Made by a program: the position numbers and the translations under genes. The notes under the pieces are model-generated. The model made no database searches. It had not been told where the DNA came from and saw only the letters and a program-made list of their open reading frames with translations. From positions 62,001 through 126,000 of the forward strand of contig CANAWG010000005.1 in assembly GCA_947365245.1 (NCBI GenBank): DNA of 64,000 nucleotides. The letters are read 5' to 3'. Every line of letters starts with the position of its first letter. The first letter of the stretch is position 1. Below, one piece after another: positions 34,811 to 55,155 of the stretch. This stretch comes from an uncultured Oscillibacter sp. Its GTDB lineage: Bacteria > Bacillota > Clostridia > Oscillospirales > Oscillospiraceae.

Positions 34811-34971
34811 GGGAACCACTGATTCAATCCTAGCACGCATCTTCACGCCATAAATCCCCCCTGGCGGCGTTAAAAAATCTTGAAATTCACAAAGGATTCC
34901 TGCGATTTTTTGCCTTGCCAGAGGAAATTTCTGACGCAAATCTGCGCACTTTGATTGAATCAATACTTCCC
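34811..34971. repeat. MITE-like intergenic repeat, copy 1
   Basis: 161 bp bounded by imperfect terminal inverted repeats: GGGAACCACTGATTCAATC at 34811 and GATTGAATCAATACTTCCC ending 34971. The interior reads, on the minus strand, GGCAAGGCAAAAAATCGC then GGAATCCTTTGTG, shared with copies at 53636 and 54992. It is AT-rich against a GC-rich background, lies between genes and is not coding. It fills most of the gap between the 74-residue protein gene and nth. Confidence 0.85.
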
Positions 34972-34986
34972 TGAGAGGTGACGAAC

Positions 34987-35625
34987 ATGAAATCCAAGGC
35001 CGCGGTCAAGCGCATCATTGAGACATTGAAGGGCGTGTACCCAGACGCCCTGTGTTCCCTGCAGTACGAGAAGGACTATGAGCTGCTCTTCGCCGTGCGG
35101 CTCTCCGCCCAGTGCACCGACGCGCGGGTAAACCAGGTGACTCCCGCCCTGTACGCCCGCTTCCCCACTCTGGAGAGCTTCGCGGAGGCGGACCCGGCGG
35201 AAGTCGGGGAGTACATCCACTCCTGCGGCTTTTACAACGGCAAGGCCCGGGACATTGTGGCCTGCGCCCGGCGGCTCATCGACGACTTCGGCGGCAGGGT
35301 CCCCGGCACCATGGCCGAGCTCACCAGTCTCCCCGGTGTGGGCCGCAAGACCGCCAACCTGATTCTGGGGGACATCTTCGGCCAGGAGGGCTACGTCTGC
35401 GACACCCACTGCATCCGCATCACCGGGCGGCTGGGGATCACCGACGGGTCCAAGGACCCCCTCCAGGTGGAGCGGCAGCTGCGAGCGTCCATCCCGCCCG
35501 TGGAGTCCAACAACTTCTGCCACCGGATGGTGCTCTTCGGCCGGGACACCTGCACCGCCCGGTCCCCCCAGTGCCAGGGCTGCCCTCTGGCGGGGGACTG
35601 CGACACGGCAAGGGGCAAAAAATAG
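34987..35625 (+). CDS. nth: Endonuclease III
   Basis: DNA glycosylase/AP lyase removing oxidised pyrimidines. 212 residues: LSAQCTDARVNQVTPAL, helix-hairpin-helix LPGVGRKTANLIL with the catalytic Lys, the catalytic Asp in VCDTHCIRITGRLG, and a C-terminal 4Fe-4S site with spacing C-x6-C-x2-C-x5-C (CTARSPQCQGCPLAGDC). ATG 34987 is favoured over GTG 34978 because GAGAGGTG is the ribosome binding site. The repeat element ends 15 bases upstream, so the promoter may lie in it. Confidence 0.95.
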   Translation: MKSKAAVKRIIETLKGVYPDALCSLQYEKDYELLFAVRLSAQCTDARVNQVTPALYARFPTLESFAEADPAEVGEYIHSCGFYNGKARDIVACARRLIDDFGGRVPGTMAELTSLPGVGRKTANLILGDIFGQEGYVCDTHCIRITGRLGITDGSKDPLQVERQLRASIPPVESNNFCHRMVLFGRDTCTARSPQCQGCPLAGDCDTARGKK

Positions 35626-35667
35626 GAGCCATTCATACGAGAATCCATTAATCTGAAATTAGAATCA

Positions 35668-35699
35668 AATGTGCCTGCGGAGATCCGCAGGCACATTTT
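35668..35699 (+). terminator. Terminator of nth
   Basis: Eleven-base stem TGTGCCTGCGG with CCGCAGGCACA, AGAT loop, then TTTTC. Confidence 0.85.
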
Positions 35700-35750
35700 C
35701 GCACTCTCCCTCATATACTGGATAAAAACCACCGTTTGGAGGATGCATAT

Positions 35751-36008
35751 ATGGATGACAAGACCACCCGGCTGGTAAACCAGCTGAAAGGAAACCCCGC
35801 CATGCTGCGCTCGCTGATGCAGTCCCGGGACGGGCAGGCGCTGATGCAGATGCTGACCCAGGGGGACCAGGGCGCCGCCTTGCAGCGGGCTGTCCAGTCT
35901 GCCGCCAGGGGAAAGCCCGAGGAGATGGTGCGGATGGTAAACCAGGTGATGCAGAGCCCCGGCGGGGCCGACCTGGTGGAGCGAATCAACAAGGCCGTTC
36001 AGAAATAA
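35751..36008 (+). CDS. Small helical protein of unknown function (cluster gene 1)
   Basis: 85 residues, predicted mostly helical and soluble, Gln/Met-rich: KTTRLVNQLKGNPAMLRSLM, QALMQMLTQGDQG, PEEMVRMVNQVMQSPGG. No family recognised. ATG 35751 follows GGAGG at eight bases. It opens a tight three-gene run (36030 and 36435 follow) that ends at a strong terminator, so the three products likely act together. Confidence 0.7.
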   Translation: MDDKTTRLVNQLKGNPAMLRSLMQSRDGQALMQMLTQGDQGAALQRAVQSAARGKPEEMVRMVNQVMQSPGGADLVERINKAVQK

Positions 36009-36029
36009 GCAGGTAAAGGAGCCGGGGAT

Positions 36030-36431
36030 ATGGCGGAATTCGACGACAAGCTCAACAGCATCCTGGGAAACCCGGACGCCATGTCCCAGATCATGCAGCT
36101 GGCCCAGTCCCTCTCCGGGTCCGGGCCGGAGCCATCGTCCGCGCCCCCGCCGCCTCCACCCCAGCAGACCGCGGCGCCGACTCCCACGGGCGGCGGGGAC
36201 CTGTTCTCCTCCCTCTCCTCCCTGGCCGGAGGGATGGACCCCAAATTCCTCTCCCGGCTCCTGCCCCTGATCCAGGAGCTGGGAGGCCAGCGGGACAGCA
36301 ACGCCCGGGCGCTGCTCTACGCCCTGCGGCCCTACCTGAAAGAGGAGAAGCAGGATAAGGTGGAGCGGGCTCTCCAGCTGGCCCGGCTGTTCCACCTGGG
36401 AAAGAAGTTCCTGTCCGGATGGGAGGGGTGA
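36030..36431 (+). CDS. Protein with Pro-rich linker (cluster gene 2)
   Basis: 133 residues: a helical N-terminus resembling gene 1 (DDKLNSILGNPDAMSQIMQL), a PPPPPPQQTAAPTPTGGG linker, and a conserved-looking helical C-terminus (LYALRPYLKEEKQDKVERAL, LARLFHLGKKFLSGWEG). The repeated NPxAM helix in genes 1 and 2 suggests a shared interaction surface. GGAG-type site before ATG 36030. Function unknown. Confidence 0.7.
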   Translation: MAEFDDKLNSILGNPDAMSQIMQLAQSLSGSGPEPSSAPPPPPPQQTAAPTPTGGGDLFSSLSSLAGGMDPKFLSRLLPLIQELGGQRDSNARALLYALRPYLKEEKQDKVERALQLARLFHLGKKFLSGWEG

Positions 36432-36434
36432 GGG

Positions 36435-36785
36435 ATGTACAACCGCTATATCCGCAACGACAACGGCACCTATACCCGGATGCCGGAGGAGGAGCCCCAC
36501 GCTCCGCCGCCGCCCCGTCCGGAGCCCTCTCCTCCGCCCTCCGGCGGATCTGTCCCGCCGCCAAGAGGAGAAGCCTTCCAGCAATCAGGTCCGGGCAGAC
36601 CCCCGCCGCCCCACCGGCAATCCGCCGATGGGCTCACCGGCTTTCTCCGGCAGATCCTGGACCAGTTTCACCTGAACCACGTGGACACCGGGGACCTGCT
36701 GCTGCTGGGCCTTTTGTTCTTCCTCTCCCGGGAGGAGGCGGACGAGGAGCTGCTGGTGGCCCTGGGGCTGCTGCTGATCCTATAG
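36435..36785 (+). CDS. Pro-rich protein with hydrophobic acidic C-terminus (cluster gene 3)
   Basis: 116 residues. Begins MYNRYIRNDNGTYTRMPEE, has a long Pro-rich disordered centre and ends with DTGDLLLLGLLFFLSREEADEEL and LLVALGLLLIL, two hydrophobic segments split by an acidic patch. The layout recurs, as far as I remember, in other Oscillospiraceae next to genes like 1 and 2, without known function. It starts 3 nt after gene 2 and precedes a terminator. Confidence 0.7.
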   Translation: MYNRYIRNDNGTYTRMPEEEPHAPPPPRPEPSPPPSGGSVPPPRGEAFQQSGPGRPPPPHRQSADGLTGFLRQILDQFHLNHVDTGDLLLLGLLFFLSREEADEELLVALGLLLIL

Positions 36786-36789
36786 AGTA

Positions 36790-36825
36790 AAACCAGCCGG
36801 AGCAAGCGCTCCGGCTGGTCTTTTA
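36790..36825. terminator. Bidirectional terminator after the three-gene cluster
   Basis: Twelve-base stem ACCAGCCGGAGC with GCTCCGGCTGGT and AAGC loop, AAAA left and TTTTA right. Confidence 0.88.
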
Positions 36826-37563
36826 TTCCTCTTCCAGGAGCGGCGTCCCGTCCGGCAGGGTGAAGTCCGCCGCGGTGGGCAGGTCCTGGTCCAGAGACAG
36901 CGCCGCCATGCGGTAGACCGGCTCCCCGTCCAGCAGCCGCTCCGAGACCGTCAGCAGCCCCGTGTCCACGCTGACCCAGTACCGCAGGACGTACCCTGCG
37001 GGATCCTCCGCCGTCTCCACATAGATACAGTTGACGCCGGAGATGGTCCGGTAGTCCGCCGCGGCGATGTCCTCCACAGGCAGCTCCAGAATCTCCTCGT
37101 AGGTGGGGATGGTCTGCTCGTCGTCGGCGGAGATGTCCCCCGCCGGCGCGGTGTACACCGCCGTCTCGCTGTCGTACCAGATATAGGTGATCTCCCCGTC
37201 TGTAATGGCGTGGCGCACCCGGCCTCCACTCAGCGTCCGGTCCGTCCGGGTCCAGCCGCCGCTGACGGCCGCCGCCGTCTCATAGGTGCCGCTGCCGCCC
37301 GCCCAGAGCTGCTCCACCGTCACCGTGCGGCGGTATTCCTGGGGCCGGGACAGGGTGGCGATGGCCGTCTGAACCGTCTCCGGTGTCACCTCCACCACCG
37401 CCAGCGCCTCTCCGGTCCCGGCGGTCTGCCCCGGCGGCTGCTGGCCGGAGGGCAGGGTGATGCGGGAGGTGCGGTGCAGCGTTCCGCTGAGCATCACCGC
37501 GATGACCGCCACGGTAACCGTCAAAAAGGCCACCGTGATCCGGTCCCGCCACCGCTTATCCAT
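36823..37563 (-). CDS. Membrane-anchored exported protein, possibly LolA-like fold
   Basis: 246 residues: short basic tail, one membrane helix (about 9-28), Gly/Pro linker and an extracytoplasmic beta-rich domain (YRRTVTVEQLWAGGSGTYET, ITDGEITYIWYDSETAVYT, YVLRYWVSVDTGLLTVSERL). The strand pattern recalls LolA/outer-membrane-carrier-like domains found in Gram-positive exported proteins; this is a weak call. It is last in the minus-strand run trpS-tagO-wecB and so may work on the surface polymer. Confidence 0.6.
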   Translation of the reverse strand: MDKRWRDRITVAFLTVTVAVIAVMLSGTLHRTSRITLPSGQQPPGQTAGTGEALAVVEVTPETVQTAIATLSRPQEYRRTVTVEQLWAGGSGTYETAAAVSGGWTRTDRTLSGGRVRHAITDGEITYIWYDSETAVYTAPAGDISADDEQTIPTYEEILELPVEDIAAADYRTISGVNCIYVETAEDPAGYVLRYWVSVDTGLLTVSERLLDGEPVYRMAALSLDQDLPTAADFTLPDGTPLLEEE

Positions 37564-37603
37564 AGCGCTCCTCCTCTTGTCCGCTCAGGGCCTGTTCCTT
37601 GTC

Positions 37604-38752
37604 TCAGGCGGAATAATCCTCCGGCCGCTCCAGCCGCAGGCCGAAACGCCACTCGACGGCGTCGGCGATGCGGCGGCAGGCGCGGCCGTCCCCGTAGGGG
37701 TTGACGGCGCGGGCCATCTTCTCGTAGGCGGACTTATCGCAGATCAGCCGCTCCGCCATGGTGACGATGTCGTCCTGCACCACACCGACCAGCTTCACCG
37801 TCCCGGCGGCCACGGCCTCGGGCCGCTCCGTCTCCCGGCGCATCACCAGCACGGGCTTTCCCAGGGCGGGGGCCTCCTCCTGAAGCCCGCCGGAGTCCGT
37901 CAGCACCAGATAGCACCGGGCCATCAGATTGTGCATCTCGTCGGCGGGCAGGGGGTCGATCAGGTGCACCCGGGGCGCGCCCCGGAGGTACTTGTCCACC
38001 GCCTCCCGCACCACCGGGCTCAAATGGACCGGATACACCAGCTCCACGTCCGGGTGCTGCTCCGCGATCTGCCGCAGGGCCAGGCAGATGTTCTTCATGG
38101 GCTCGCCGTAGTTCTCCCGCCGGTGGCAGGTGACCAGGAGGATCTTCTTCTCCCCGTAGGGAAGATGGTTCAGCTCCTCCGTCATAAAGCGGTAGTCCTC
38201 CCGCACGGTGGTTTTCAGCGCGTCGATCACCGTGTTGCCGGTGATAAAGAGATTCTCCGTGTGCCCCTCCCGGCGGAGGTTCTCCCGGTTGCCGGCAGTG
38301 GGGCAGAAGTACAGATCCGCGATGCCGGAGACCAGCAGGCGGTTCATCTCCTCTGGAAAGGGAGAATACTTGTCATAGGTTCGCAGGCCCGCCTCCACAT
38401 GGCCCACGGGAATCTGGTGATAGAACGCGGAGAGGGCCCCGGCAAAGGTGGTGGAGGTATCCCCGTGGACCAGCACCAGGTCCGGCTTCAGCGTCTCCAG
38501 CGCCTCGTCCATGCCGGTGAGGCACTTGCTGGTAATGGTGGAGAGGGTCTGCCGGGGGGTCATGATGTCCAGGTCCCAGTCCGGCTTCAGGTCAAAGACC
38601 TCCAGCACGCTGTCCAGCATCTGCCGGTGCTGGGCGGTGACGCAGCAGAGGCTCTCGATCCCCGGGCGGGAGGCCAGCTCCTTGACCAGGGGACACATCT
38701 TGATGGCCTCCGGCCTAGTGCCGAATACACTCAAAATCCGCAGCTTGTCCAT
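37604..38752 (-). CDS. wecB: UDP-N-acetylglucosamine 2-epimerase
   Basis: Interconverts UDP-GlcNAc and UDP-ManNAc, supplying ManNAc for wall teichoic acid or capsule linkage units. 382 residues with SVFGTRPEAIKMCPLVKEL, TAQHRQMLDSVL, VLVHGDTSTTFAGALSAFY, GHVEAGLRTYDKYSPFPEE(M), HRRENYG and LTDSGGLQEEAPALGKPVL. ATG 38750-38752 follows the tagO stop directly, with GAGGAG in the tagO end. Together with tagO and the TagA-like gene at 51053 it gives the first steps of ManNAc-GlcNAc linkage synthesis. Confidence 0.95.
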   Translation of the reverse strand: MDKLRILSVFGTRPEAIKMCPLVKELASRPGIESLCCVTAQHRQMLDSVLEVFDLKPDWDLDIMTPRQTLSTITSKCLTGMDEALETLKPDLVLVHGDTSTTFAGALSAFYHQIPVGHVEAGLRTYDKYSPFPEEMNRLLVSGIADLYFCPTAGNRENLRREGHTENLFITGNTVIDALKTTVREDYRFMTEELNHLPYGEKKILLVTCHRRENYGEPMKNICLALRQIAEQHPDVELVYPVHLSPVVREAVDKYLRGAPRVHLIDPLPADEMHNLMARCYLVLTDSGGLQEEAPALGKPVLVMRRETERPEAVAAGTVKLVGVVQDDIVTMAERLICDKSAYEKMARAVNPYGDGRACRRIADAVEWRFGLRLERPEDYSA

Positions 38753-39892
38753 TTACGGCTCCTCGTCTTTCTTCTGTTCCCCATCTTTCTTCTCTTCCTC
38801 GTGATGCCCGTGCTCCTTCAGCTCCTCCAGCTCCTCCTGGAGCTCCTCCCGGACCTCCTTGGGGAACACCACCCGGGCGGCCACCACGCCCACGATGCAA
38901 AGCGCGGCGAACAGCAGCATGGCCTTCTGCTCCCCGCCGGTGGTCAGCACCACGGCGGAAAGGCCCAAAATGGCGGAGATCACGTACAGCGTGGCCACCG
39001 CCTGCTTCTGGCTCAGGCCCATGTCGATGAGCCGGTGGTGGATGTGGCCCCGGTCGGCGTGCATGGGGCTCTGGCCGTGGGCGATGCGGCGGATAAAGGC
39101 AAAGGCGGTGTCAAAGATGGGCAGGCCCAGGATCAAAAAGGGCACCGCGAAAGAGATCACCGCGTAAAACTTGAAGAGCCCCTGGATGGACATGGTGGCC
39201 AGGATATAGCCCAGGAACGTGGCCCCGGTGTCCCCCATAAACATCTTGGCGGGGTTGAGGTTGTAAGGCATGAAGCCCACGCAGGCCCCCACCAGCGCCG
39301 CCATGACGATGGCCACCTGCAGCTCCGAGCCCATAAGGGCGATGACCAGCACCGTGGTGGCGGAGATGGCGGACACGCCGTCCGCCAGGCCGTCCAGTCC
39401 GTCGATGAGGTTCACGGCGTTGGTGATGGCCACGATCCACAGCACCGTAAAGGGGATGGAGAGCCACCCCAGCACCCAGTAGAGGTTGTCCGAGAAGATG
39501 TTGGGGTTGGAGAAGGCCTGGATCACCACACCATTGAGGGCGGGGATCAGGGCGGCCGCGATCTGAACCACAAATTTCAGCATGGCGGGCAGGGCGCAGA
39601 TATCGTCCACCACGCCCAGCACCACGATAATCACCGATCCAAGGAGGATGCTGCGCATCTCCGGCGTGATCTCCACAAAGAGCAAAATGCTCACCATGAA
39701 GCCGAAGAAAATGGCCAGGCCCCCCAGGCGGGGGATGGGCTTTTTGTGCATCCGGCGGTCGTCCTTGGGCACGTCGATGGCCCCCACCTTATAGGCAAAG
39801 GACTTCACCACCGGGGTCATCAGGAAGCTCACCACCAGGGCCGTCAGCAGCGCCAGCACCACATAGGCCAGCATCTGTGTTTGAAACGTCAT
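38753..39892 (-). CDS. tagO: Undecaprenyl-phosphate GlcNAc-1-phosphate transferase (TagO/WecA)
   Basis: First, lipid-linked step of wall teichoic acid/linkage unit synthesis. 379 residues, about ten helices, MraY superfamily motifs: DRRMHKKPIPRLGG, VLGVVDDI (Asp pair), NAVNLIDGLDGLADG, FMGDTGATFLGY and ADRGHIHHRL. The last 50 residues form an unusual charged, coiled tail (EELQEELEELKEHGHHEEEKK). Starts 12 nt after trpS ends and abuts wecB. Confidence 0.93.
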   Translation of the reverse strand: MTFQTQMLAYVVLALLTALVVSFLMTPVVKSFAYKVGAIDVPKDDRRMHKKPIPRLGGLAIFFGFMVSILLFVEITPEMRSILLGSVIIVVLGVVDDICALPAMLKFVVQIAAALIPALNGVVIQAFSNPNIFSDNLYWVLGWLSIPFTVLWIVAITNAVNLIDGLDGLADGVSAISATTVLVIALMGSELQVAIVMAALVGACVGFMPYNLNPAKMFMGDTGATFLGYILATMSIQGLFKFYAVISFAVPFLILGLPIFDTAFAFIRRIAHGQSPMHADRGHIHHRLIDMGLSQKQAVATLYVISAILGLSAVVLTTGGEQKAMLLFAALCIVGVVAARVVFPKEVREELQEELEELKEHGHHEEEKKDGEQKKDEEP

Positions 39893-39904
39893 GTCGTCCC
39901 TCTC

Positions 39905-40912
39905 TCAGCGGGCCACGAAGCCCACCTTGCGGTGGACCTTGTCCAGCGTCCGCTGGGCCAGGCGGCCGGCCCGCTGGGCCCCCTCCCGGTAGACGCCCTC
40001 CAGGTACGCCTTGTCCTTCATCATGCGGGCGGCCTCCTCCCGCATGGGGCGCAGCAGCTCGGCCACCGCCTCCCCCACGGCGGGCTTGAACACGCCGTAG
40101 CCCTGTCCGGCGAACTCCGCCTCAGCCTCCTCCAGGCTTTTGCCCGCGGCGGCGCAGTAGATGGTCAGAAGGTTGGAGACGCCGGGCTTGTTCTCCTTGT
40201 CGTAGCGGACGCTGGTCTCGCTGTCGGTGACGGCCCGCTTGAACTTTCGCTGGATCACCTCCGGCGGGTCCATCAGGTACACGCAGCCGTCGGGATCGGA
40301 CTTGCTCATCTTGCTCAGGGGATTGCCCAGACTCATGATCCGGGCCCCCTGGTCCACCCGCTGAATCAGGGCCTCCGGCAGGACAAAGGTCTCGCTGTAC
40401 ACGCCGTTGAACCGCTGGGCGATGTCCCGGCACAGCTCCACATGCTGGCGCTGGTCCTCCCCCACCGGCACATAGTCCGCCTGGTAGAGCAGGATGTCCG
40501 CCGCCATCAGCACCGGGTAGGTGAAAAGGCCGGCGGTGATGTTGTCGGCGTGCTGCTGGGACTTCTGCTTGAACTGGGTCATGCGGCTCAGCTCGCCGAA
40601 CTGGGTGTAGCAGCCCAAAATCCAGCTGAGCTCCGCGTGCTGGGGCACGTGGCTCTGGACGAAGAGAATGCTCTTGGCCGGATCCAGGCCGCAGGCCAGA
40701 TACTGGGCCAGCTGCTCCAGGCAGCGGCGGCGCAGGTCCGCGGGGTTCTGGCGCACGGTGATGGCGTGCATGTCCACGATGCAGTACACACAGTCGTACT
40801 CGTCCTGCATGGTCACCCAGTTTTTGATTGCCCCCATATAGGAGCCCAGGGTCAGGTCGCCGCTGGGCTGAATGCCGCTGAAAACTCTCTTTTTTCGGGT
40901 CTGGTTTTCCAT
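39905..40912 (-). CDS. trpS: Tryptophanyl-tRNA synthetase
   Basis: Class I synthetase charging tRNA-Trp, 335 residues. FSGIQPSGDLTLGSYMGAI holds the HIGH-equivalent, YPVLMAADILLYQADYVPVG(E) the Trp/ATP site, and SKMSKS the second signature. GAGGTG precedes ATG 40912. No T-box leader: the promoter is only about 60 nt upstream. Confidence 0.96.
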   Translation of the reverse strand: MENQTRKKRVFSGIQPSGDLTLGSYMGAIKNWVTMQDEYDCVYCIVDMHAITVRQNPADLRRRCLEQLAQYLACGLDPAKSILFVQSHVPQHAELSWILGCYTQFGELSRMTQFKQKSQQHADNITAGLFTYPVLMAADILLYQADYVPVGEDQRQHVELCRDIAQRFNGVYSETFVLPEALIQRVDQGARIMSLGNPLSKMSKSDPDGCVYLMDPPEVIQRKFKRAVTDSETSVRYDKENKPGVSNLLTIYCAAAGKSLEEAEAEFAGQGYGVFKPAVGEAVAELLRPMREEAARMMKDKAYLEGVYREGAQRAGRLAQRTLDKVHRKVGFVAR

Positions 40913-40977
40913 ATTCGCACCTCGCTGTTTGATGCCGCCGGAGAATTCCTCCGTCGGGCAGACTTACTCGAATTATA

Positions 40978-41006
40978 AGTATACCACCTTTTTCCCCGCC
41001 GCGCAA
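40978..41006 (-). promoter_or_regulatory. Promoter of trpS-tagO-wecB
   Basis: Minus strand TTGCGC, exactly 17 bases, TATACT, with a second TATAAT just downstream. Confidence 0.65.
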
Positions 41007-41092
41007 TCACCTGCCGCCCCTTTCCCCCTCTGATTTTTCTGAAAGCGGAATCTGGGATTTTGTATATATTTTCTCCCTGTGCAATCCAATCC

Positions 41093-41121
41093 TTGACATT
41101 CGCCTCCGAAACGGCCATAAT
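41093..41121 (+). promoter_or_regulatory. Promoter of gltX-spoIIM(-asnA)
   Basis: TTGACA, exactly 17 bases, CATAAT. Confidence 0.8.
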
Positions 41122-41164
41122 GCTATTTGTGAATTTATGCTTATTACCAAGTGGAGGTATTTTT

Positions 41165-43275: not shown

Positions 43276-43312
43276 TCCTGCAAATTCTATTATAAAGGAC
43301 TGGTTTCATCTC

Positions 43313-44320: not shown

Positions 44321-44430
44321 AGAATTTCTACTTTTCAGGAAAATATCCCCCCGGGCGGGGAGGGGATCCTGCTCTCCCCTCCCGGCGGGAAATCACAGGA
44401 AAAAGAATATCTCCGAGCCAGCTTGCAGAG

Positions 44431-44465: not shown

Positions 44466-44478
44466 CAAAATTTTCCGC

Positions 44479-45448: not shown

Positions 45449-45505
45449 TCATCAACGAGGGAAAGCCGAATCAAGGGTGCGCCCGGCCAGGGGCGGCCCT
45501 CATCC

Positions 45506-46714: not shown

Positions 46715-46751
46715 GGTCATCGCTCCTTTATTTCGATGTTTTCCGGGGACC

Positions 46752-46780
46752 ACTTTACGCCGCCTGTCCCCGTTTGTCAA
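46752..46780 (-). promoter_or_regulatory. Promoter of the A-type flavoprotein gene
   Basis: Minus strand TTGACA, exactly 17 bases, TAAAGT. Confidence 0.75.
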
Positions 46781-46808
46781 GGCTCCCGGGGTAAATCCGC
46801 AGGGGGCG

Positions 46809-48206: not shown

Positions 48207-48231
48207 GGCAGTCTCTCCTTATTATAATAGG

Positions 48232-49461
48232 TTATTTGGCCGAGAGGTTCACCCCGCGGCGCACCAGCGTCATGGGCGGCACCGCCCGGGGAAGCCTCAT
48301 GCAAAAGAGCATCTGAGGCGTCCGGGGCTCCTCCAGGAGCTCTCCCGCCTCGCTCCGCATCTCCCCCGCCGTCATGGAAAAGGGCCGCAGGTCCGGCCCC
48401 ACCAGCTCCACCTCGTCTCCGGTGCGGAACTTGTTCCGCAGGGACAGCACCGCGTTGCCCTCACTGTCGCAATTCATAACAAGGGCAACCACTTGCCAGT
48501 CCCGGATGTAGCGGGAGGTCTCGTAGTACTGCCCCGGATCGCCGTAGTAGAAGCCGGTGGAGTAGGGCCGGTGGCTGACGTGCTCCACCTCGTCTCTCCA
48601 CACCTCGTCCGCCGGCTCCCCCGCCGCCGCCGCGTCCAGACAGTGGCGGTAGGCGCCGGTGACGATAGCGGCGTAATAGGCGGACTTGGCCCGCCCCTCG
48701 ATCTTCAAACTGCTGAGGCCCGCGGCGCAGAGGTCCTCCAGGTGGTCGATCATGCACATATCCCGGGAGTTCAGAATGTACGCGCCCTGGCCGTCCTCCT
48801 CGATGGGGAAGTACTCGCCGGGGCGCTTCTCCTCCATCAGGGCGTAGTGGTAGCGGCAGGGCTGGGCGCAGGCCCCCCGGCTGGAATCCCGCCCCGTCAT
48901 ATAGTTGCTCAGGAGGCACCGGCCGGAGTAGCTCACGCACATGGCGCCGTGGACAAAGGCCTCCAGCTCCAGTTCGGCGGGCGTCCTGTCCCGGATGGTG
49001 CGGATTTCCGCGAGGCTCAGCTCCCGGGCCAGGATGACCCGGGAGGCCCCCAGGTCGTACCAGGCCCGGGCGGTCTCGTAGTTGCAGACGCTGGCCTGGG
49101 TGGAGACGTGGCGCCGGCACCGGGGAGCGTACCGCCCCGCCAGGGTGAACGTCCCCAGGTCCGCGGCGATCAGGGCGTCCACCCCGGCGTCGTTCAGCCG
49201 CTCCAGGTGCTCCGGAAGACGGGCGATCTCGTCGTTGCGGGGCATGGTGTTGACGGTGCAGTGGACCCGGACGCCGTGGCTGTGGGCGTAGGCCACCGCT
49301 TTGGGCAGCTCCTCCGGGGTGAAGTTCCCGGCGAAAGCCCGCATCCCGAAGTCCGTCCCCGCCAGGTACACGGCGTCCGCGCCGTAGAGAACGGCCATCT
49401 TCAGCCGCTCCATGTCCCCCGCCGGGGCCAGCAACTCCGGTTTTCTCCCCTTATCCGCCAT
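48232..49461 (-). CDS. Peptidase U32 family protein (RlhA/YrrO-like)
   Basis: 409 residues. PELLAPAGDMERLKMAVLYGADAVY at the start (core LLAPAGD), and the U32 signature EAFVHGAMCVSYSGRCLLSN followed by RDSSRGACAQPCR with the iron-sulfur cysteines. Members modify 23S rRNA (RlhA, C2501 hydroxylation) or tRNA (TrhP, ho5U34) rather than act as collagenases. ATG 49461 overlaps the mltG end by 11 nt. The exact RNA target cannot be decided here. Confidence 0.88.
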   Translation of the reverse strand: MADKGRKPELLAPAGDMERLKMAVLYGADAVYLAGTDFGMRAFAGNFTPEELPKAVAYAHSHGVRVHCTVNTMPRNDEIARLPEHLERLNDAGVDALIAADLGTFTLAGRYAPRCRRHVSTQASVCNYETARAWYDLGASRVILARELSLAEIRTIRDRTPAELELEAFVHGAMCVSYSGRCLLSNYMTGRDSSRGACAQPCRYHYALMEEKRPGEYFPIEEDGQGAYILNSRDMCMIDHLEDLCAAGLSSLKIEGRAKSAYYAAIVTGAYRHCLDAAAAGEPADEVWRDEVEHVSHRPYSTGFYYGDPGQYYETSRYIRDWQVVALVMNCDSEGNAVLSLRNKFRTGDEVELVGPDLRPFSMTAGEMRSEAGELLEEPRTPQMLFCMRLPRAVPPMTLVRRGVNLSAK

Positions 49462-50620
49462 ACTGACTGCTGTTGACGAAGCTCAGGAAGCTGTTGTAGT
49501 CGGCGAAGTAGTGGTGCTTCTGGTCCGTCCCCAGGGCGTAGTAGTAGTAGTCGCTGGAGGTGGGGTACAGCGCCGCGTTGATGGCGGCCATGCCGGGGTT
49601 GGCGATGGGCGTGGGGGGCAGTCCCGCGTATTTGCGCAGGTTGTAGGGGCTGTCCGTCTCCAGGTCGGCGCTGGTAATGGCCCCCTCGTGGTCCGGCAGG
49701 GCGTAGAGCAGCGCGGCGTCGATCTGGAGCATTCCGTAGGTGCCCCGCTTGTCCCCGGGGCCGTTGAGGCGGTTGTAGATGACGGAGGCGATCATGGCCT
49801 GGTCGCTGCCGTCGGTCTCCTTTTCAATGAGGGAGGCGATGGTGACAATCTCTTTCATCGTGCGGCCGGAGGACTCCAGCTCCTCCTGGATGTCCTCGCC
49901 CATCATCTTCTGCTCAAAGTTCCGGATCAGCCGCTCCAGAGCGCCCTGGGCGTTGTGGTTCACGTAGAACTCATAGGTGTCCGGGAAGAGATAGCCCTCC
50001 AGGCGGCTGATGTCCTGGGACTCGTTGTCGATAAACTCGTAGTTGAACTCCGCCGTCCTGGCGGCCTCCAGGAGATTTTCCTCCGTGTTGACGCCTTTCT
50101 CCGCCAGCAGGCGGATGGTCTGGGCGACGGTGTAGCCCTCGGGAATGGTGACGGTCACCGTCTCCGCGCTCATGCTGCCGGAGGCGCCGCGCATTCCGGA
50201 GATCAGGGCGTGGTAGTCCATGTCGTTGTTCAGCTGATAGGTGCCGATGCCGATCTCGTCCTCGGCCTTGATGATTTTGGCGAAGAGCTTGAAGAACCAC
50301 TTGTACTGGATCAGCTCCGCCTCCTGGAGCTTGTCCGCCACGGTGTCCAGGTCGTCCTCGGCGGTGATCTCCACCGTCGTCTCCGTCTTCGTGCCGCGGT
50401 TGAACGCGCACAGATCCGACGCCAGCAGCCAGCCCACGCCGGCCATGGTGGCCGAGGCGGCCACCACGATCAGCACGTAGAGAATCACCGCCAGCAGCGG
50501 GTTCATGCGCCGCCGCTTCCGGCGGCGGGTGTTCCTGTTCTCCTGGGGACGTCCCGCCTGGGCGTGGCGCACCTGCTCGGCGTCCCAGCTGGCGGTATCC
50601 CCGTTTTTGAAATCTGCCAT
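49451..50620 (-). CDS. mltG: Endolytic transglycosylase MltG
   Basis: Cleaves nascent peptidoglycan glycan strands near the membrane. 389 residues: cytosolic basic tail (NRNTRRRKRRRM), one membrane helix (about 42-65), a LysM-like region (VTIPEGYTVAQTIRLLAEKG) and the YceG catalytic part with IVTIASLIEKET (catalytic Glu), YNRL, LQIDAALLYAL, SPYNLRKYAGLPPTPIANPG. GGAGG precedes ATG 50620; an in-frame extension to 50731 has no such site. Confidence 0.94.
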   Translation of the reverse strand: MADFKNGDTASWDAEQVRHAQAGRPQENRNTRRRKRRRMNPLLAVILYVLIVVAASATMAGVGWLLASDLCAFNRGTKTETTVEITAEDDLDTVADKLQEAELIQYKWFFKLFAKIIKAEDEIGIGTYQLNNDMDYHALISGMRGASGSMSAETVTVTIPEGYTVAQTIRLLAEKGVNTEENLLEAARTAEFNYEFIDNESQDISRLEGYLFPDTYEFYVNHNAQGALERLIRNFEQKMMGEDIQEELESSGRTMKEIVTIASLIEKETDGSDQAMIASVIYNRLNGPGDKRGTYGMLQIDAALLYALPDHEGAITSADLETDSPYNLRKYAGLPPTPIANPGMAAINAALYPTSSDYYYYALGTDQKHHYFADYNSFLSFVNSSQYGG

Positions 50621-50716
50621 TGAAACCTCCATACCCGGCCCCGCCTTCACCGGGGCCGTCCATTCCTCACGTAAAATTATTTTTTCAATGGCCAGGCTCC
50701 CGCGGGAGCTCCGGCG

Positions 50717-50725
50717 CATAGAATA
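50717..50725 (+). promoter_or_regulatory. Possible sporulation (SigE/SigK-like) -10 element of the Cys-rich gene
   Basis: CATAGAATA fits the mother-cell -10 pattern CATAnnnTA about 30 bases before the ATG at 50755. No convincing -35 element was found, so this is tentative. Confidence 0.35.
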
Positions 50726-50754
50726 TCCCAAAGTCTTTAAGAGAGGTGTTTGAA

Positions 50755-50991
50755 ATGTGCTTTAACAACGGAAACAACAACTCCTGCCTGTGGATCATCA
50801 TCATCCTGGTCCTGTGCTGCTGCTGCGGCAACGGCTCCTGGGGCAATTCCTGGGGCGGCGGAAACTGGGGCGGCTCCTGCGGCTGCGGCAACTGGAACGG
50901 CTGCAACTGCGGCTGTGGCTGCAACTGCGGCTGTGGCTGCAACTGCGGCTGCAACTGCAACTGCAACAACTGCAACGACAACTGCTGCTGA
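50755..50991 (+). CDS. Cysteine-rich mini-protein, 22 Cys in 78 residues
   Basis: A 78-residue protein made almost wholly of Cys, Asn, Gly and Trp, apart from one hydrophobic run WIIIILVL ending in CCCC. The C-terminal half is a near-perfect alternation of Cys with Gly or Asn (C at every second position from 50 to 70). AGAGGTG lies six bases before ATG 50755, and a clean terminator follows. It resembles proteins loosely named chorion-class high-cysteine proteins in clostridial genomes. A structural coat or metal-binding role is inferred. Confidence 0.8.
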   Translation: MCFNNGNNNSCLWIIIILVLCCCCGNGSWGNSWGGGNWGGSCGCGNWNGCNCGCGCNCGCGCNCGCNCNCNNCNDNCC

Positions 50992-51002
50992 ATGCCGGGG
51001 AG

Positions 51003-51027
51003 ACGGGGCGCGAAAGCGCCTCGTTTT
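51003..51027 (+). terminator. Terminator of the Cys-rich gene
   Basis: Nine-base stem ACGGGGCGC with GCGCCTCGT closed by a GAAA tetraloop, followed by TTT. Confidence 0.75.
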
Positions 51028-51052
51028 CCGCCCCGCGGCGGGGACAGGCCCT

Positions 51053-51772
51053 CTACTTCCTCCGGCCGGACTGCCGCACATGGACCAAAAACAGCGGCAG
51101 CTTCATCATGCGGCCCAGCCGCCGGGGATCGCTGCACAGCCGGTAAAACCACTCCAGGCCGTGGTCCCGCCAAAATTTTGGGGCCCGCTTCACCGTGCCG
51201 GCGAATACGTCCAGACTGCCGCCCAGGCCGCAGAGGAGCTTCGCGCCGGTGGCAGGCCCGTTCTTCGCCATCCACAGCTCCTGCTTCGGCGCGCCCAGGC
51301 ACACGAACACCGCGTCTGCGCCGCTTTGGCGGATCTCCTCCACGATGGGCCCGTCCTCCTGGAAGTACCCGTTGTGAACGCCGGCGATCCGCAGTCCGGG
51401 ATACCGCTCTTTCAGACGCTCCGCCGCCGTCTCCGCCACGCCGGGCTTGGCCCCCAGCAGGTAGAGGGACAGCCCCTCCCCCGCCATGCTCTCCAGCAGC
51501 CGGGCGGCAAATTCGATGCCGGGCACCCGCTCCCGCAAGGGCGTGCCCAGCATGGCCGCGCCCTTGATGACGCCGATGCCGTCGGGCAGCACCAGCGCCG
51601 CGCCGTTGACAGCCTCCCGGGCCGCCGGGTTCTCCCGGCAGACCTCCACGATCTCCGGATTGGGCGTCACCACATAGTGGGTCCCCCCAGCGCGAAGCAG
51701 CTCGCGGCCTCGCTCCACGGCCTCGTCCAGCGTCAAATTGTCAAAGCCGACGCCCAGCACGTCCACGCGCAT
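51053..51772 (-). CDS. WecG/TagA/CpsF-family glycosyltransferase
   Basis: 239 residues; TagA-type enzymes add ManNAc from UDP-ManNAc onto undecaprenyl-PP-GlcNAc. Motifs: DVLGVGFDNLTLDEAVE, YVVTPNPEIVEVCRENP, LVLPDGIGVIKGAAMLG, ERVPGIEF, LYLLGAKPGV and VFVCLGAPKQELWM. ATG 51772 follows GAGGTGA. It stands apart from tagO and wecB in the window, but completes that pathway: TagO, WecB and TagA would make the disaccharide linkage unit. Confidence 0.92.
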   Translation of the reverse strand: MRVDVLGVGFDNLTLDEAVERGRELLRAGGTHYVVTPNPEIVEVCRENPAAREAVNGAALVLPDGIGVIKGAAMLGTPLRERVPGIEFAARLLESMAGEGLSLYLLGAKPGVAETAAERLKERYPGLRIAGVHNGYFQEDGPIVEEIRQSGADAVFVCLGAPKQELWMAKNGPATGAKLLCGLGGSLDVFAGTVKRAPKFWRDHGLEWFYRLCSDPRRLGRMMKLPLFLVHVRQSGRRK

Positions 51773-51923
51773 GGGATCACCTCGCATCCATACTCATACA
51801 GTTTGTAAGTATAGCATAGATGCCGGTAAAAAATCAAGAGGAACGCGGTGTACGTCCCTCTTTTTCTTCTCTCTGGCCTCCGGTGTCTCAGCGCACCCCC
51901 AAGCTTCGCAAGGAAAAGGGTGT

Positions 51924-52008
51924 GTGCGGGAAAAACCTCTGCGGGTTTTTCCTGCACGATTGAAATCAGCCCGCCCGAGGCGGCCGCTTTGGCCCGCGGC
52001 CAAAGCGG
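51924..52008. repeat. Two strong hairpins downstream of the tRNA-Cys gene
   Basis: A 14-bp stem at 51924-51937 with 51944-51957 (one G-T pair), and a perfect 11-bp stem CCGCTTTGGCC with GGCCAAAGCGG (51984-51994 / 51998-52008). The second one shares bases with the longer tRNA-end palindrome that follows. The surrounding 51773-52053 stretch holds no gene that I can support. Confidence 0.7.
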
Positions 52009-52066
52009 TGTCACCTCCAAAGAAAAAAGACGCCTCACGGCGTCTTTTTTCTTTGGAGGTGACACC
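52007..52066. repeat. Perfect 28-bp inverted repeat copying the tRNA-Cys 3' end
   Basis: Left arm 52007-52034, TCAC loop, right arm 52039-52066, every base paired. The right arm includes the last 13 nt of tRNA-Cys (acceptor strand, discriminator and CCA); the left arm is an inverted copy. The central AAAAAAGACGCC/GGCGTCTTTTTT part works as the tRNA terminator in either direction. Confidence 0.9.
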
Positions 52067-52128
52067 CGGATTTGAACCGGGGAATCAGGGTTTTGCAGAC
52101 CCTTGCCTTACCACTTGGCTATGTCACC
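52054..52128 (-). tRNA. tRNA-Cys (GCA)
   Basis: 75 nt, cloverleaf folds with acceptor GGTGACA/TGTCACC, anticodon GCA in CTGCAAA, T-loop GGTTTGAATCC, U at the discriminator position and encoded CCA. Separate promoter; the 3' end lies in a 28-bp palindrome. Confidence 0.96.
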
Positions 52129-52142
52129 GTCTCTGTACTATT

Positions 52143-52171
52143 ATTATATGCGTCTTTTCCGAAAAAGTCCA
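52143..52171 (-). promoter_or_regulatory. Promoter of tRNA-Cys
   Basis: Minus strand TGGACT, exactly 17 bases, TATAAT, ending 15 bases before the tRNA 5' end. Confidence 0.65.
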
Positions 52172-52190
52172 CACTTATTTTTTGAAATTG

Positions 52191-52219
52191 CGATTCCCAC
52201 ACAAACTGTGTGGGAATCG
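52191..52219 (-). terminator. Terminator-like hairpin after the tRNA Val-Asp-Phe-Gly array
   Basis: Perfect 13-bp stem with a three-base loop, just 3' of tRNA-Gly on the minus strand; the T tract is weak. Confidence 0.6.
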
Positions 52220-52223
52220 TATA

Positions 52224-52299
52224 TGGAGCGGGCAACGAGGCTCGAACTCGCTACCTCCACCTTGGCAAGGTGGCGCTCTACCAGATGAGCTATGCCCGC
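52224..52299 (-). tRNA. tRNA-Gly (GCC)
   Basis: 76 nt with acceptor GCGGGCA/TTGCCCGC-type pairing, anticodon GCC in CTTGCCAAG, T-arm GAGTTCGAGCCTC and encoded CCA. Last of the four-gene array. Confidence 0.97.
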
Positions 52300-52304
52300 G
52301 TAAA

Positions 52305-52380
52305 TGGTGCCCAGAGCCGGAATCGAACCAGCGACACGTGGATTTTCAGTCCACTGCTCTACCAACTGAGCTATCTGGGC
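52305..52380 (-). tRNA. tRNA-Phe (GAA)
   Basis: 76 nt, anticodon GAA in ACTGAAAAT, T-arm GGTTCGATTCC, encoded CCA; five bases from tRNA-Gly. Confidence 0.97.
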
Positions 52381-52464
52381 GAATCTTTTTCCGCGCCAAA
52401 AAGGCGCGGCGGGGAATTGCAACCCCGGAGGGACCCACGGAATCCTCTCAGATCCCGTGGGATA

Positions 52465-52541
52465 TGGCGACCCGGAACGGGCTCGAACCGTCGACCTCTA
52501 GCGTGACAGGCTAGCGTTCTAACCAACTGAACTACCGGGCC
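52465..52541 (-). tRNA. tRNA-Asp (GTC)
   Basis: 77 nt, acceptor GGCCCGG with CCGGGTC (one G-T pair), anticodon GTC in CTGTCAC, encoded CCA. The 84 bases to tRNA-Phe contain small hairpins, for example CCGCGCC/GGCGCGG. Confidence 0.97.
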
Positions 52542-52551
52542 ATCGAAACCA

Positions 52552-52628
52552 TGGTGGGAACAACTGGACTCGAACCAGTGACCCCCTGCTTGTAAGGCAG
52601 GTGCTCTAACCAGCTGAGCTATGCTCCC
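52552..52628 (-). tRNA. tRNA-Val (TAC)
   Basis: 77 nt, anticodon TAC in CTTACAA, acceptor GGGAGCA/TGTTCCC, T-arm GGTTCGAGTCC, encoded CCA. First gene of the array. Confidence 0.97.
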
Positions 52629-52660
52629 GGCTCGCCGCCTTTTGTCAGACGGCAAGAGTT

Positions 52661-52689
52661 ATTATACGCAAAGGCCCCCATCCTGTCAA
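52661..52689 (-). promoter_or_regulatory. Consensus promoter of the tRNA array
   Basis: Minus strand TTGACA, exactly 17 bases, TATAAT: a perfect consensus, 33 bases ahead of tRNA-Val. Confidence 0.92.
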
Positions 52690-52707
52690 CCCAATTTTAC
52701 GAAATTT

Positions 52708-53598
52708 TCAAAATTTTTTCCGCATCCCCGCCAGCAGTGCCTCCAGCTCCTCTCTGGTAAACGTCTGCACATTGTCGCAGAACCGGCAGGTCAGCTCCGC
52801 GCCGCCCTGCTGGTCGATGATGCCCTTCAGCTCCTCCGGGCCCAGGCTGATCAGCGCCCGCTCCATCCGGTCCCGGCTGCAGTCGCAGCGGTAGGCGATG
52901 GGCGTGCGCTCCAAAATCTCCAGCTCAAAGTCGGACAGCACCCGCCGCAGCATCTCCTCCGGCGCGGCGCTGCCGCTGAGAAGCCCCGTCACGGACCCGG
53001 CGGCCATCACGCCGCCCTCCACCTTGGAGATGACGTCCTCCCCCGCCCCGGGCAGCAGCTGGATCAGGTATCCTCCCGCCGCCAGGACGCTCTGGTCCCG
53101 GTCCACCAGCACCCCCAGGCCGCAGGCCGTGGGAATCTGCTCAGACTCCACAAAGTACGCCGCCAAATCCTCGGCGATCTCGCCCCCCAGCAGCCCCACG
53201 CTGCCCACATAAGGATCCTTCATGTGCAGGTCCCGGATGACGGTCAAGGTGCCCTCACCGCCCACGGCGGCGCCCACGTCCAGCTTCCCGTCGGGCCGCA
53301 GGGGGATATCCACCGCGGGGTTGTCCACGGTGCCCCGGACGTTGCCCTGGTTGTCGGATACCGCCAGCAAAATGCCTAAGGGTCCGCCGCCCTGGATACG
53401 CAGGGTGAGACTGGCCCCGTCCTCTTTCAACGCGTTGCCCATCATGGAAGCCGCCGCCAGCGTCCGCCCCAGGGCCGCCGTGGCCACCGGCAGCGTTCTG
53501 TGGATCTGCCGCGCCCGCTCCGTCAGCTCCCGGGTGGAGACCGCCACGGCCTTTACCATCCCGTCCTTTGTGATTGCCCGTACCAGCTCGTCAGCCAT
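52708..53598 (-). CDS. hslO: Redox-regulated chaperone Hsp33
   Basis: Holdase activated by oxidative unfolding. 296 residues: LVRAITKDGMVKAVAVSTRE, ALGRTLAAASMMG, LRIQGGGPLGILLAVSD, VDNPAVDIPLRPDGKLDVG, and the C-terminal zinc switch CDC and CRFC (C-x-C and C-x2-C about 30 residues apart). AAAGGAG before ATG 53598. The second MITE-like repeat lies directly upstream, between it and the methyltransferase gene. Confidence 0.96.
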   Translation of the reverse strand: MADELVRAITKDGMVKAVAVSTRELTERARQIHRTLPVATAALGRTLAAASMMGNALKEDGASLTLRIQGGGPLGILLAVSDNQGNVRGTVDNPAVDIPLRPDGKLDVGAAVGGEGTLTVIRDLHMKDPYVGSVGLLGGEIAEDLAAYFVESEQIPTACGLGVLVDRDQSVLAAGGYLIQLLPGAGEDVISKVEGGVMAAGSVTGLLSGSAAPEEMLRRVLSDFELEILERTPIAYRCDCSRDRMERALISLGPEELKGIIDQQGGAELTCRFCDNVQTFTREELEALLAGMRKKF

Positions 53599-53635
53599 GA
53601 AGTATAACTCCTTTACAGTTATTGCTGTTCCTCAA

Positions 53636-53795
53636 GGAAGTACTAATTAAATCAGCGTGCGTAGATTTGCGTCAGAAATTGTCGCCGGCAAGGAAGAAAA
53701 CCGCAGGAATCCTTTGTGACTTTCAAGATTTTCCGGCGCTGTCCAGCGGGAATTTATGACGTGAAGATGCGTGCGAGGATTTATTCAGCGGTTCC
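53636..53795. repeat. MITE-like intergenic repeat, copy 2
   Basis: 160 bp. Ends GGAAGTACTAATTAAATC and ATTTATTCAGCGGTTCC are imperfect inverted repeats. The interior (AGATTTGCGTCAGAAATT, GGAATCCTTTGTG, TTCAAGATTTT, GACGTGAAGATGCGTGC) matches the minus strand of copy 1 closely, so the two are in opposite orientation. The element overlaps the last 73 nt of the methyltransferase gene at 53723. Confidence 0.87.
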
Positions 53796-54532
53796 TTAAA
53801 GCACCGCACCGTCCAGCGGTCCTCATCCGCCGCCGGCGGGCGGAGGGAGAGGTCCCCGGTGATGGAGGCCGAGGCGAAGCCGGCCTCCGCCAGATACTGC
53901 CGCAGCTCCTCCGCCTCCCAGGCCCGCTCCCGGTGCTCCTCGAAGTCCCGCTCCCAGGTCCCGTCCGCCCGCAGATGGAACAGATCCACCTGATAGGTGC
54001 AGATCTTCGTCTTTTCGGAGAAGAATGTCCGCCATACACAGAAGCTCTCCTCCGTCTCGTCCATATACATCTGCCCGTCCATTCGCCGCAGCTTGTGGGG
54101 GGTGTTCACGTCAAAGATGAACTGCCCGCCGGGCCGCAGCCAGCGGTACACCCGCCGGAAAGTCTCCCGCAGGTCCCGACTCCTGGTCAAATAGTTCAGA
54201 GAGTCCAGGGTGGAGACCGCCGCGTCCACCGGCTCCATCAGCCGCAGGCGGGGCATGGCCTGGAGGAGAAACAGCGGCGCTGACGCCAGCCCCTCCGCCT
54301 TGGCCGCTGCCTGGGTCAGCATCTCCTCCGAGCCGTCCGCGGCGACGACCTTGTACCCCCGCTCCGCCAGGAGACAGGCGATGGTGCCGGTGCCGCAGGC
54401 CAGATCCAGCACGCTCTCCACCGGAAACGGGCTCTTCCGGAAGAGCCGCTCCAGAAAGTCCGCCCGCCGCCGGTAGGCCCCGTCGGCCATCAGCCCATCG
54501 TAGCTGGAGGCCAGGGCGCCGTAGCCCCTCAC
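53723..54532 (-). CDS. SAM-dependent methyltransferase, C-terminus encoded by the repeat
   Basis: 269-residue class I methyltransferase: VLDLACGTGTIACLLAERG (motif I), VVAADGSEEML (motif II), DAAVSTLDSLNYL, WLRPGGQFIFDVNTP. The substrate is unknown. GTG 54532 overlaps the yerC stop. About the last 24 residues (KSSHASSRHKFPLDSAGKS and stop) are read from repeat copy 2, so the original C-terminus was probably replaced when the element arrived. It belongs to a yerC-methyltransferase pair. Confidence 0.87.
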   Translation of the reverse strand: MRGYGALASSYDGLMADGAYRRRADFLERLFRKSPFPVESVLDLACGTGTIACLLAERGYKVVAADGSEEMLTQAAAKAEGLASAPLFLLQAMPRLRLMEPVDAAVSTLDSLNYLTRSRDLRETFRRVYRWLRPGGQFIFDVNTPHKLRRMDGQMYMDETEESFCVWRTFFSEKTKICTYQVDLFHLRADGTWERDFEEHRERAWEAEELRQYLAEAGFASASITGDLSLRPPAADEDRWTVRCFKEPLNKSSHASSRHKFPLDSAGKS

Positions 54533-54819
54533 CGCTTCTTCATCCGGGCGAACACTTTCTCGTATCCCCCCGCGCCGTAGCTCAAAGAGCGGTTCACCCG
54601 GCTGATGGTGGCGCTGGAGGCCCCGGTGCGCTCCAGAATATCGTTGTAGATCATGCCATCGTCCAGCAGCGACGCCACCTCGAACCGCTGCTCCATGGAC
54701 CGGAGCTCAGACACGGTGCACAGGTCCTGAAAAAAGTCGTAGCACTCCTGTTCGTCCTTCAGCTGCAAAATGGCCTTGTACAGCAGGTCGCTCTTTTCCT
54801 TCTTGCCGATCTTGACCAT
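54529..54819 (-). CDS. YerC/YecD-family TrpR-like DNA-binding protein
   Basis: 96 residues with the TrpR/YerC fold: LYKAILQLKDEQECYDFFQD, LCTVSELRSMEQRFEVASLL and the helix-turn-helix DILERTGASSATISRVNRSL. Members are small regulators of unknown ligand; the Bacillus name is YerC. GGAGGG lies ten bases before ATG 54819. The stop overlaps the methyltransferase GTG start. Confidence 0.92.
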   Translation of the reverse strand: MVKIGKKEKSDLLYKAILQLKDEQECYDFFQDLCTVSELRSMEQRFEVASLLDDGMIYNDILERTGASSATISRVNRSLSYGAGGYEKVFARMKKR

Positions 54820-54894
54820 AGTATGGTACCCTCCACGCCCTTGTTTTCCCGGGGAGCGCGCCGTCCGCCGGCGGCTTTCCCCGCTGTCCGTTAT

Positions 54895-54923
54895 ATTTTA
54901 GCACTTCATTGCGTGAAAGTAAA
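54895..54923 (-). promoter_or_regulatory. Promoter of the yerC-methyltransferase pair
   Basis: Minus strand TTTACT, exactly 17 bases, TAAAAT. Confidence 0.6.
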
Positions 54924-54991
54924 GAGGGAGGGCGTAAAATTTTCCCCGCCGCCGCACCACCCCCTGTCCCCCTCCATAGGCTGGATAAACA

Positions 54992-55155
54992 AGAACCTGT
55001 ATTCACAACCGGGGAATGCCGGATGGACGAGAGATTTTGCTGTCCTGCAAGGCAAAAAATCGCGGAAATACTTTGTGTATTGCAAGATTTTTTAACGTGG
55101 CAGGGCGGCAAAAGATCCGTCCAGACGGTGTTCAACGGCCGTGAATACAGGTTCT
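54992..55155. repeat. MITE-like intergenic repeat, copy 3
   Basis: 164 bp with perfect 15-bp terminal inverted repeats AGAACCTGTATTCAC and GTGAATACAGGTTCT. The interior GGCAAGGCAAAAAATCGCGG, ACTTTGTGTATTGCAAGA and TTTTTTAACG matches copies 1 and 2, but the ends differ in sequence, so it is a subfamily. Same orientation as copy 2. It sits just upstream of the DUF3298 gene. Confidence 0.87.

Follow-up and report, generated by a model that had tools for sequence, protein, structure and literature searches.

Mobile inverted-repeat elements with a covarying hairpin core in an uncultured Oscillibacter sp. and the match of that core to Correia elements

Miniature inverted-repeat transposable elements (MITEs) are usually seen as decayed copies of insertion sequences (ISs) with filler inside. 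Among the closest described systems are the Correia elements (CREE, NEMIS) of Neisseria, which are short and non-autonomous and carry terminal inverted repeats. PMC2649163 gives more than 100 copies per genome, a stem-loop transcript, and a 26-bp Correia repeat said to occur only in Neisseria, and both it and PMC10969869 report Correia transcripts as RNase III substrates. Here we describe elements that are likewise short, non-autonomous, and bounded by terminal inverted repeats, three copies of which lie in a 64,000-nt stretch of DNA from an uncultured Oscillibacter sp. (the window; GenBank assembly GCA_947365245.1, contig CANAWG010000005.1, positions 62,001 to 126,000 of the forward strand). 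In these elements it is the inside, a hairpin core, that is conserved and, as we argue below, selected, while the ends vary.

A first-pass annotation had placed a three-copy family of such elements at 34811-34971 (copy 1, minus strand), 53636-53795 (copy 2, plus strand), and 54992-55155 (copy 3, plus strand), and these coordinates and strands, including the opposite orientation of copy 1, were confirmed. In a repeat search of the window, copies 1 and 2 proved complementary to each other at 80% across 124 nt and at 86% across 56 nt, and copies 1 and 3 at 84% across 62 nt, well beyond short chance matches. Each copy is predicted to form one long hairpin (-84.1, -56.7, and -94.0 kcal/mol for copies 1, 2, and 3), with stabilities relative to shuffled sequence of z -12.60, -4.09, and -14.30. 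The cores lie at 34853-34929 (minus strand, reading CAAGG..CGCAG..CAAG..ACGC), 53678-53753 (plus strand), and 55036-55112 (plus strand), with G+C contents of 43%, 51%, and 43%. When scanned with R2, a covariance model built from 70 diverse cores, the window yielded these three copies only, at 83.0 bits (E 2.1e-23), 47.3 bits (E 4.6e-12), and 81.4 bits (E 7e-23), respectively, with the next best match at 12.6 bits; the central helix of copy 2 is mismatched at two of its eight pairs. Terminal inverted repeats were confirmed by folds and alignments both on the window copies and on other copies in the genome that holds the window (G000, hereafter the own genome). The statement that end sequences differ between copies holds for copy 3, with its distinct AGAACCTG... 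ends (AGAACCTGTATTCAC..GTGAATACAGGTTCT) and their perfect 15-bp repeats as first described, but not for copies 1 (GGGAAG..GGTTCCC) and 2, whose GGAAG... ends are of the same kind. The elements, ~160 bp in length, are multicopy in the own genome: R1, a covariance model built from own-genome copies only, gave 36 matches (E <= 0.1) and R2 gave 37 (E <= 0.01), while a DNA similarity search returned 21 matches with copy 1 and 57 with copy 3, many of them partial or overlapping.

The core strand can be written as C[AA]G-G-x-N7-C[GCA]G, a 7-bp stem, an apical loop, and C[AA]G-N7-y-A-C[GCA]G, where x/y is C/A in 104, A/G in 11, and C/C in 4 of the 119 cores among the pattern matches listed. Since each side of the core takes the form CAAG-N9-CGCAG, the result is an 8-bp helix framed by two AA/GCA internal loops, with two-fold symmetry. 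Covariation supports this structure at several depths. Among 22 own-genome copies found via DNA similarity with no motif used (22 of the 24 full elements; L013 and L041 failed a pattern), standard pairs fill 89.9% of pair cells, both partners have changed in 16 of 23 pairs, and covariation scores 0.512, compared with 0.170 in shuffled alignments. Over whole elements, compensatory change is seen in 40 of the 50 consensus pairs of an alignment of 21 of the 24 full elements (L011, L013, and L050 omitted). The 70 diverse cores represent 70 of 85 clusters, 12 others having been judged chance matches to a pattern allowing up to three mismatches and another three, L009, L088, and L095, being omitted but possibly real; here 22 of 27 core pairs show compensatory change and covariation reaches 0.665, compared with 0.182 after shuffling and no more than 0.227 after sliding. 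A further 46 cores came from 40 loci in 40 genomes of the phylum of Microbulbifer litoralis (G065), chosen from the better R2 matches and all rematching R2. One of these cores is identical to a training row of R2 (L438 repeats a training row), and the other 45 are all less than 85% alike to the training rows by position. Their covariation is 0.907, compared with 0.212 after shuffling and no more than 0.178 after sliding, in an alignment that was fitted to R2 and is so biased towards the model, and these model-found matches retain the AA/GCA loop positions. The suggestion that this is a structured element kept by covariation was upheld in both the own-genome and the diverse sets.

Under selection on double-stranded DNA, G.T and A.C mispairs should be equally common, since they are the same change read from opposite strands. 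Instead, G.T outnumbers A.C by 170 to 27 in the 119 cores among the pattern matches listed, by 174 to 34 in the 70 diverse cores (113 to 31 once two columns dominated by wobble pairs are set aside), and by 101 to 20 in the 46 further cores. Taken core by core, 61 of the 70 lean to G.T and 1 leans the opposite way, as do 40 and 2, respectively, of the 46. Within the 21 aligned elements, the asymmetry is found in the core (51:9) and in the middle (45:3), while the terminal repeats stand at 24:15 (p 0.2). Since wobble is one-sided in the middle and core, one folded single strand is the selected object there, and we regard the predicted single-strand fold of the core as established by this pattern of substitution. 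The first-pass annotation had read changing ends around a kept interior as a hint of selection on a hairpin, and the strand test bears it out. The folded strand is most likely RNA rather than single-stranded DNA, while the element ends look like double-stranded transposase sites.

A pattern of the core with free stems occurs in at least 120 stretches in one-per-species genomes. The matches listed include many Oscillospiraceae and their kin, as well as Rhodobacteraceae, Novosphingobium, Saccharospirillum, Microbulbifer, Chromatiaceae, Burkholderiales, Myxococcales, and Lutispora, and the pattern is also present in two viral contigs. At E 1e-3, R1 matched 19 of 20 genomes hand-picked from the pattern matches listed, with 2 to at least 150 copies each. 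Of 60 genomes, among them the own one, R1 matched 29 at this threshold, and these come from 10 of the 24 genera. At E 1e-6, R2 matched 19 genomes out of 398 in the own phylum and, in the phylum of M. litoralis, 110 out of 398, counts that take in G000 in the former and G065 and G060 in the latter, all known beforehand, with 12 candidates scored per genome. At the level of sequence, the core occurs across phyla, and search listings from one open-licence library held no earlier report of such a cross-phylum link. Rfam families resemble the core in being conserved structured strands, but none matched at the elements at gathering score; at relaxed E, two far subthreshold microRNA-precursor matches overlapped copy 3 (E 0.2 and 3.4) and none else fell at the elements. 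The core would add to Rfam 15 a structured family that it lacks, one matched in 110 genomes of the 398 sampled from a single large phylum.

The core also matches Correia elements. In two 50-kb stretches of Neisseria gonorrhoeae, R2 found all seven short Correia elements (counted as inverted ends within one mismatch each), with scores from 46.8 down to 27.4 bits and E values between 1.5e-11 and 2.2e-5. The next R2 match in these 100 kb had an E of 0.38, and no Neisseria is present among the titled training rows of R2, whose other rows include one from a viral contig. In 13 viral contigs with a 21-base piece of the Correia repeat, there were seven R2 matches, six of them within Correia-type inverted ends. 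Spacing and most loop letters of Correia elements and the core agree in the R2 alignment. As a matter of model score the match is significant, and the two may share common descent. Both this match and the occurrence of the core across phyla are beyond what the first-pass annotation foresaw. The Correia terminal repeat, ATAG(T/C)GGATTAA, is by contrast unrelated to the window ends, and Correia lengths are 104-108 and 153-157 bp, compared with ~160 bp for the window copies. With GGAAG.. or AGAACCTG.. at their termini, the window copies fall outside the Correia elements proper. The N. gonorrhoeae record NZ_CP119140.1 (L429, L430) is filed as a plasmid, at a size of 2.17 Mb that fits a chromosome.

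In 150 kb of Escherichia coli K-12, scanned as a negative control, R2 gave one match (21.1 bits), at the repeat between aceF and lpd, which we take to be an ERIC. Of six ERIC-like copies found by BLAST, two match R2 weakly (21.1 and 25.5 bits, E 9e-5 and 0.0022). Like the window elements, ERIC is an intergenic palindrome, but it has a longer apex and different ends, and four of its six copies are unmatched by the core model; a possible kinship with the core is a lead only, and a weak one.

The ends fall into families, namely A (GGAAGCACTGATTAAATCA, on window copies 1 and 2), B (GAACCTGTATTCACAACCG, on window copy 3), C (GAAGCTGTACCATTAGCC) and D (GGCCTTGTTTGATAAATGG), both among own-genome copies, and E (GAGCCTGTTTAAAATCC), added from a relative. 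Comparison of sites with and without the element covered copies 2 and 3, whose flanking gene order is kept across the genus, and drew on those of 37 relatives with both flanking segments on one contig (32 for copy 2 and 25 for copy 3). At the site of copy 2, 29 of 32 relatives have a gap shorter by 100 bp or more, and in the remaining three it is shorter by 54, 86, and 90 bp (median difference -167.5); at the site of copy 3, all 25 relatives have a gap shorter by 100 bp or more (median difference -170). Alignments display the empty sites in four relatives for copy 2 and in seven for copy 3. Copies 2 and 3 are insertions.

In one relative, G034, R1 finds 77 matches and R2 finds 80, and its copies are 94-100% identical within family (two families sampled, 8 copies). 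An exact 3-bp target duplication flanks 23 of 30 G034 rows, versus a shuffled mean of 5.6 and maximum of 15, with rows of doubtful ends (L332 plus strand, L333, and L335) scored as misses. Left-hand flanks read TNA in 23 of the 30 rows, right-hand flanks in 27. By family, duplications were found in 8/8 rows for C, 11/14 for E, and 4/6 for B, all three of which duplicate TNA. Three family D copies in the own genome have TA at both sides, too few to exclude TA as part of the element, and in three proteobacterial genomes viewed in alignment the elements mostly start and finish with CTAG or TTAG. End families go with different target duplications, then, these being TNA and, on thinner evidence, TA and YTAR.

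Among the IS-like loci reached by a search for PF01609, at least four (L284, L287, L294, and L298) bear family A ends on both sides, 1182-1183 bp apart; ends appear on both sides of the candidate loci L292 and L302 too. In the one family A IS transposase tested, PF01609 and PF05598 were found together, as in IS5-type enzymes. The elements resemble IS5-family-derived MITEs in that family A ends match these 1182-1183-bp ISs and that, in G034, TNA is the target duplicated by families B, C, and E. Unlike the elements, these ISs have no hairpin core, and an R2 scan of six PF01609 loci, family A ISs included, gave no match. Since, by eye, the likeness between IS and MITE does not extend beyond ~20 bp, the core is no remnant of the family A IS. 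None of the 30 PF01609 loci searched had a family B end pair. The elements themselves contain no transposase gene, which is found only in separate ISs, and no autonomous core-bearing element was seen, either as an R2 match in the six PF01609 loci or in 11 further loci whose translated frames were viewed by eye, without a family search. A search for plasmid relatives of a Burkholderiales copy found none. Altogether, the many copies, the empty sites that relatives show for copies 2 and 3, the duplications in G034, and an IS with family A ends sustain the proposal of a non-autonomous MITE.

We favor, as modestly probable on balance, the reading that the window copies are non-autonomous MITEs of a widespread superfamily ("Correia-core elements") whose core acts as a folded single strand, probably RNA. 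The terminal inverted repeats would be used in trans by an IS-encoded DDE transposase, for which the empty sites, target duplications, and IS5-like elements with matching family A ends give partial support. Since ends and target duplications differ by family while the core stays, the core lineage may repeatedly have taken on ends fitted to different transposases. When the element is transcribed, the core would fold as RNA, and its two symmetric AA/GCA loops, about one helical turn apart, might suit a homodimer binding double-stranded RNA. Our best guess at the role of the core is an RNA bound by a double-strand-specific protein, with RNase III the best candidate partner because Correia transcripts are reported to be its substrates. 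The core may aid transposition, copy survival, or host tolerance, to the benefit of the element. A terminator function was also considered and was dropped, a T-run following the apex in some families only.

A wider picture, which we put forward tentatively and as possible at best, is that of an old parasitic hairpin RNA module, older than its present ends and living in several phyla much as short interspersed nuclear elements do, whose constant core would engage a universal RNA-binding host protein and whose ends would be exchanged according to the available IS transposase; Correia, possibly ERIC, and many unnamed repeats would be its branches. If true, this would link repeats known for decades under separate names, the Correia core would no longer be confined to Neisseria, and a direct test would be opened of what such elements do to transcripts.

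Several observations weigh against the reading that we favor. The Correia link rests on the broader model R2, because R1 yields just one Correia element (E 0.012); R2 itself matched 0 of 2 long Correia elements in the same 100 kb, and about half of the Correia 8-bp helix is unpaired in its alignment. The review PMC10969869 puts the RNase III cuts of Correia-bearing mRNA at the terminal repeats and not at the core. Conservation of the loop letters in the 70 diverse cores is partly imposed, many rows having been found by a pattern that holds these letters with the stems left free, and the difference in strand bias between core and terminal repeats within the 21 elements (p 0.015) is, like all p values here, optimistic, since the sequences are related. 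In the own genome, exact 3-bp flanks occur in 6 of 23 copies, with 3.0 expected and a shuffle maximum of 9, and so are not above shuffles. None of the six own-genome family A copies with a GGAAGC left end has a 3-bp duplication, and of four family A IS copies only two carry the same 4 bp on either side. A benefit confined to sense read-through transcripts is not supported, because orientation to genes is without clear bias; an apparent bias in G000 with crude gene calls (19 to 3, by downstream gene) became 16 to 11 with better calls and was set aside. Lastly, a weak test by GC skew saw no replication-strand bias (11 to 9, 11 to 18, and 11 to 18).

Integron attC sites and the ends of IS200/IS605 elements are read as folded strands, and the core might similarly fold and work as single-stranded DNA, for instance in transposition or at the replication fork. 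The strand test speaks for a single-strand fold but would read the same for RNA and DNA, and random orientation to genes is what would be expected if transcription were irrelevant. Given, however, that the target duplications and the DDE IS partner of family A point to ordinary double-strand transposition, that the GC-skew counts just given reveal no strand bias, and that the terminal repeats, which the transposase would read, lack a significant one (24:15), we consider this alternative unlikely. Less likely still, and in our view quite improbable, is that these are ordinary MITEs whose core has no function, the palindrome arms being corrected against each other and the core being common by plain descent. 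Such self-correction would also yield compensatory changes, and the young copies of G034 are 94-100% identical within families (8 compared). Yet arm correction on double-stranded DNA predicts no G.T excess, whereas the core stands at 51:9 against 24:15 in the terminal repeats, and it would remove mismatched loops, whereas the 46 matches found by the model retain the AA/GCA positions.

The remaining alternative concerns the Correia match, and with it that of ERIC, which might reflect convergence on an RNase III-type substrate in place of common descent. A Correia helix that lacks about half of its 8 bp in the model alignment, an ERIC matched in two of six copies only, and unrelated terminal repeats would all fit convergence. 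Against this are the seven short Correia elements matched at E values down to 1.5e-11 by a model whose titled rows hold no Neisseria, and the agreement in spacing and in most loop letters; we therefore doubt that convergence is the explanation and, for the window copies, retain the reading of MITEs with a folded single-strand core.

With regard to gene context, the earlier description of the copies as lying between genes and free of coding frames does not strictly hold for copy 2. Copy 1 has minus-strand open reading frames (ORFs) on one flank and adjoins the plus-strand ORF 34978-35625, which is endonuclease III-like as judged from reading its translation, while copy 3 lies between ORFs 54529-54819 (minus strand) and 55141-55896 (plus strand). 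Copy 2 departs from the description in overlapping the 3' end of the minus-strand ORF 53723-54532, a putative methyltransferase judged from reading its translation, and in supplying its last codons. Copy 2 lengthens an open frame in this way, and elements elsewhere in the own genome can adjoin stop codons: when the element is taken as 164 bp around the core, by raw count 14 of the 29 copies with gene calls lie within ~6 bp of the stop codon ending an adjacent predicted gene (L002, L005, L006, L008, L009, L011, L025, L026, L029, L041, L048, L050, L073, and L080). TNA targets can include TAA and TGA.

Some variation in architecture was also seen. Two cores stand in inverted order ~105 nt apart in L440, L441, L442, L443, and L449, and in L448 a second core lies ~275 nt off; by eye, a short CCC..GGG hairpin lies between the paired cores of L440, L441, L442, and L449. 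Small extra palindromic repeats occur inside the apex or arm of L014, L016, L045, and L046, and the 50-bp internal insert of the long Correia form, as given in PMC2229807, resembles these inserted repeats.

Elsewhere in the window, a 6S RNA gene is predicted at 27496-27694 on the plus strand (Rfam RF00013, 68.1 bits), and a search for plasmid relatives of window positions 27300-31500 found none. An inverted repeat at 31806-31869 has 30-nt arms that are 87% complementary and 4 nt apart. Finally, nine overlapping 48-nt repeats span 50805-50990, with codons for Cys, Gly, and Asn abundant as judged by eye.

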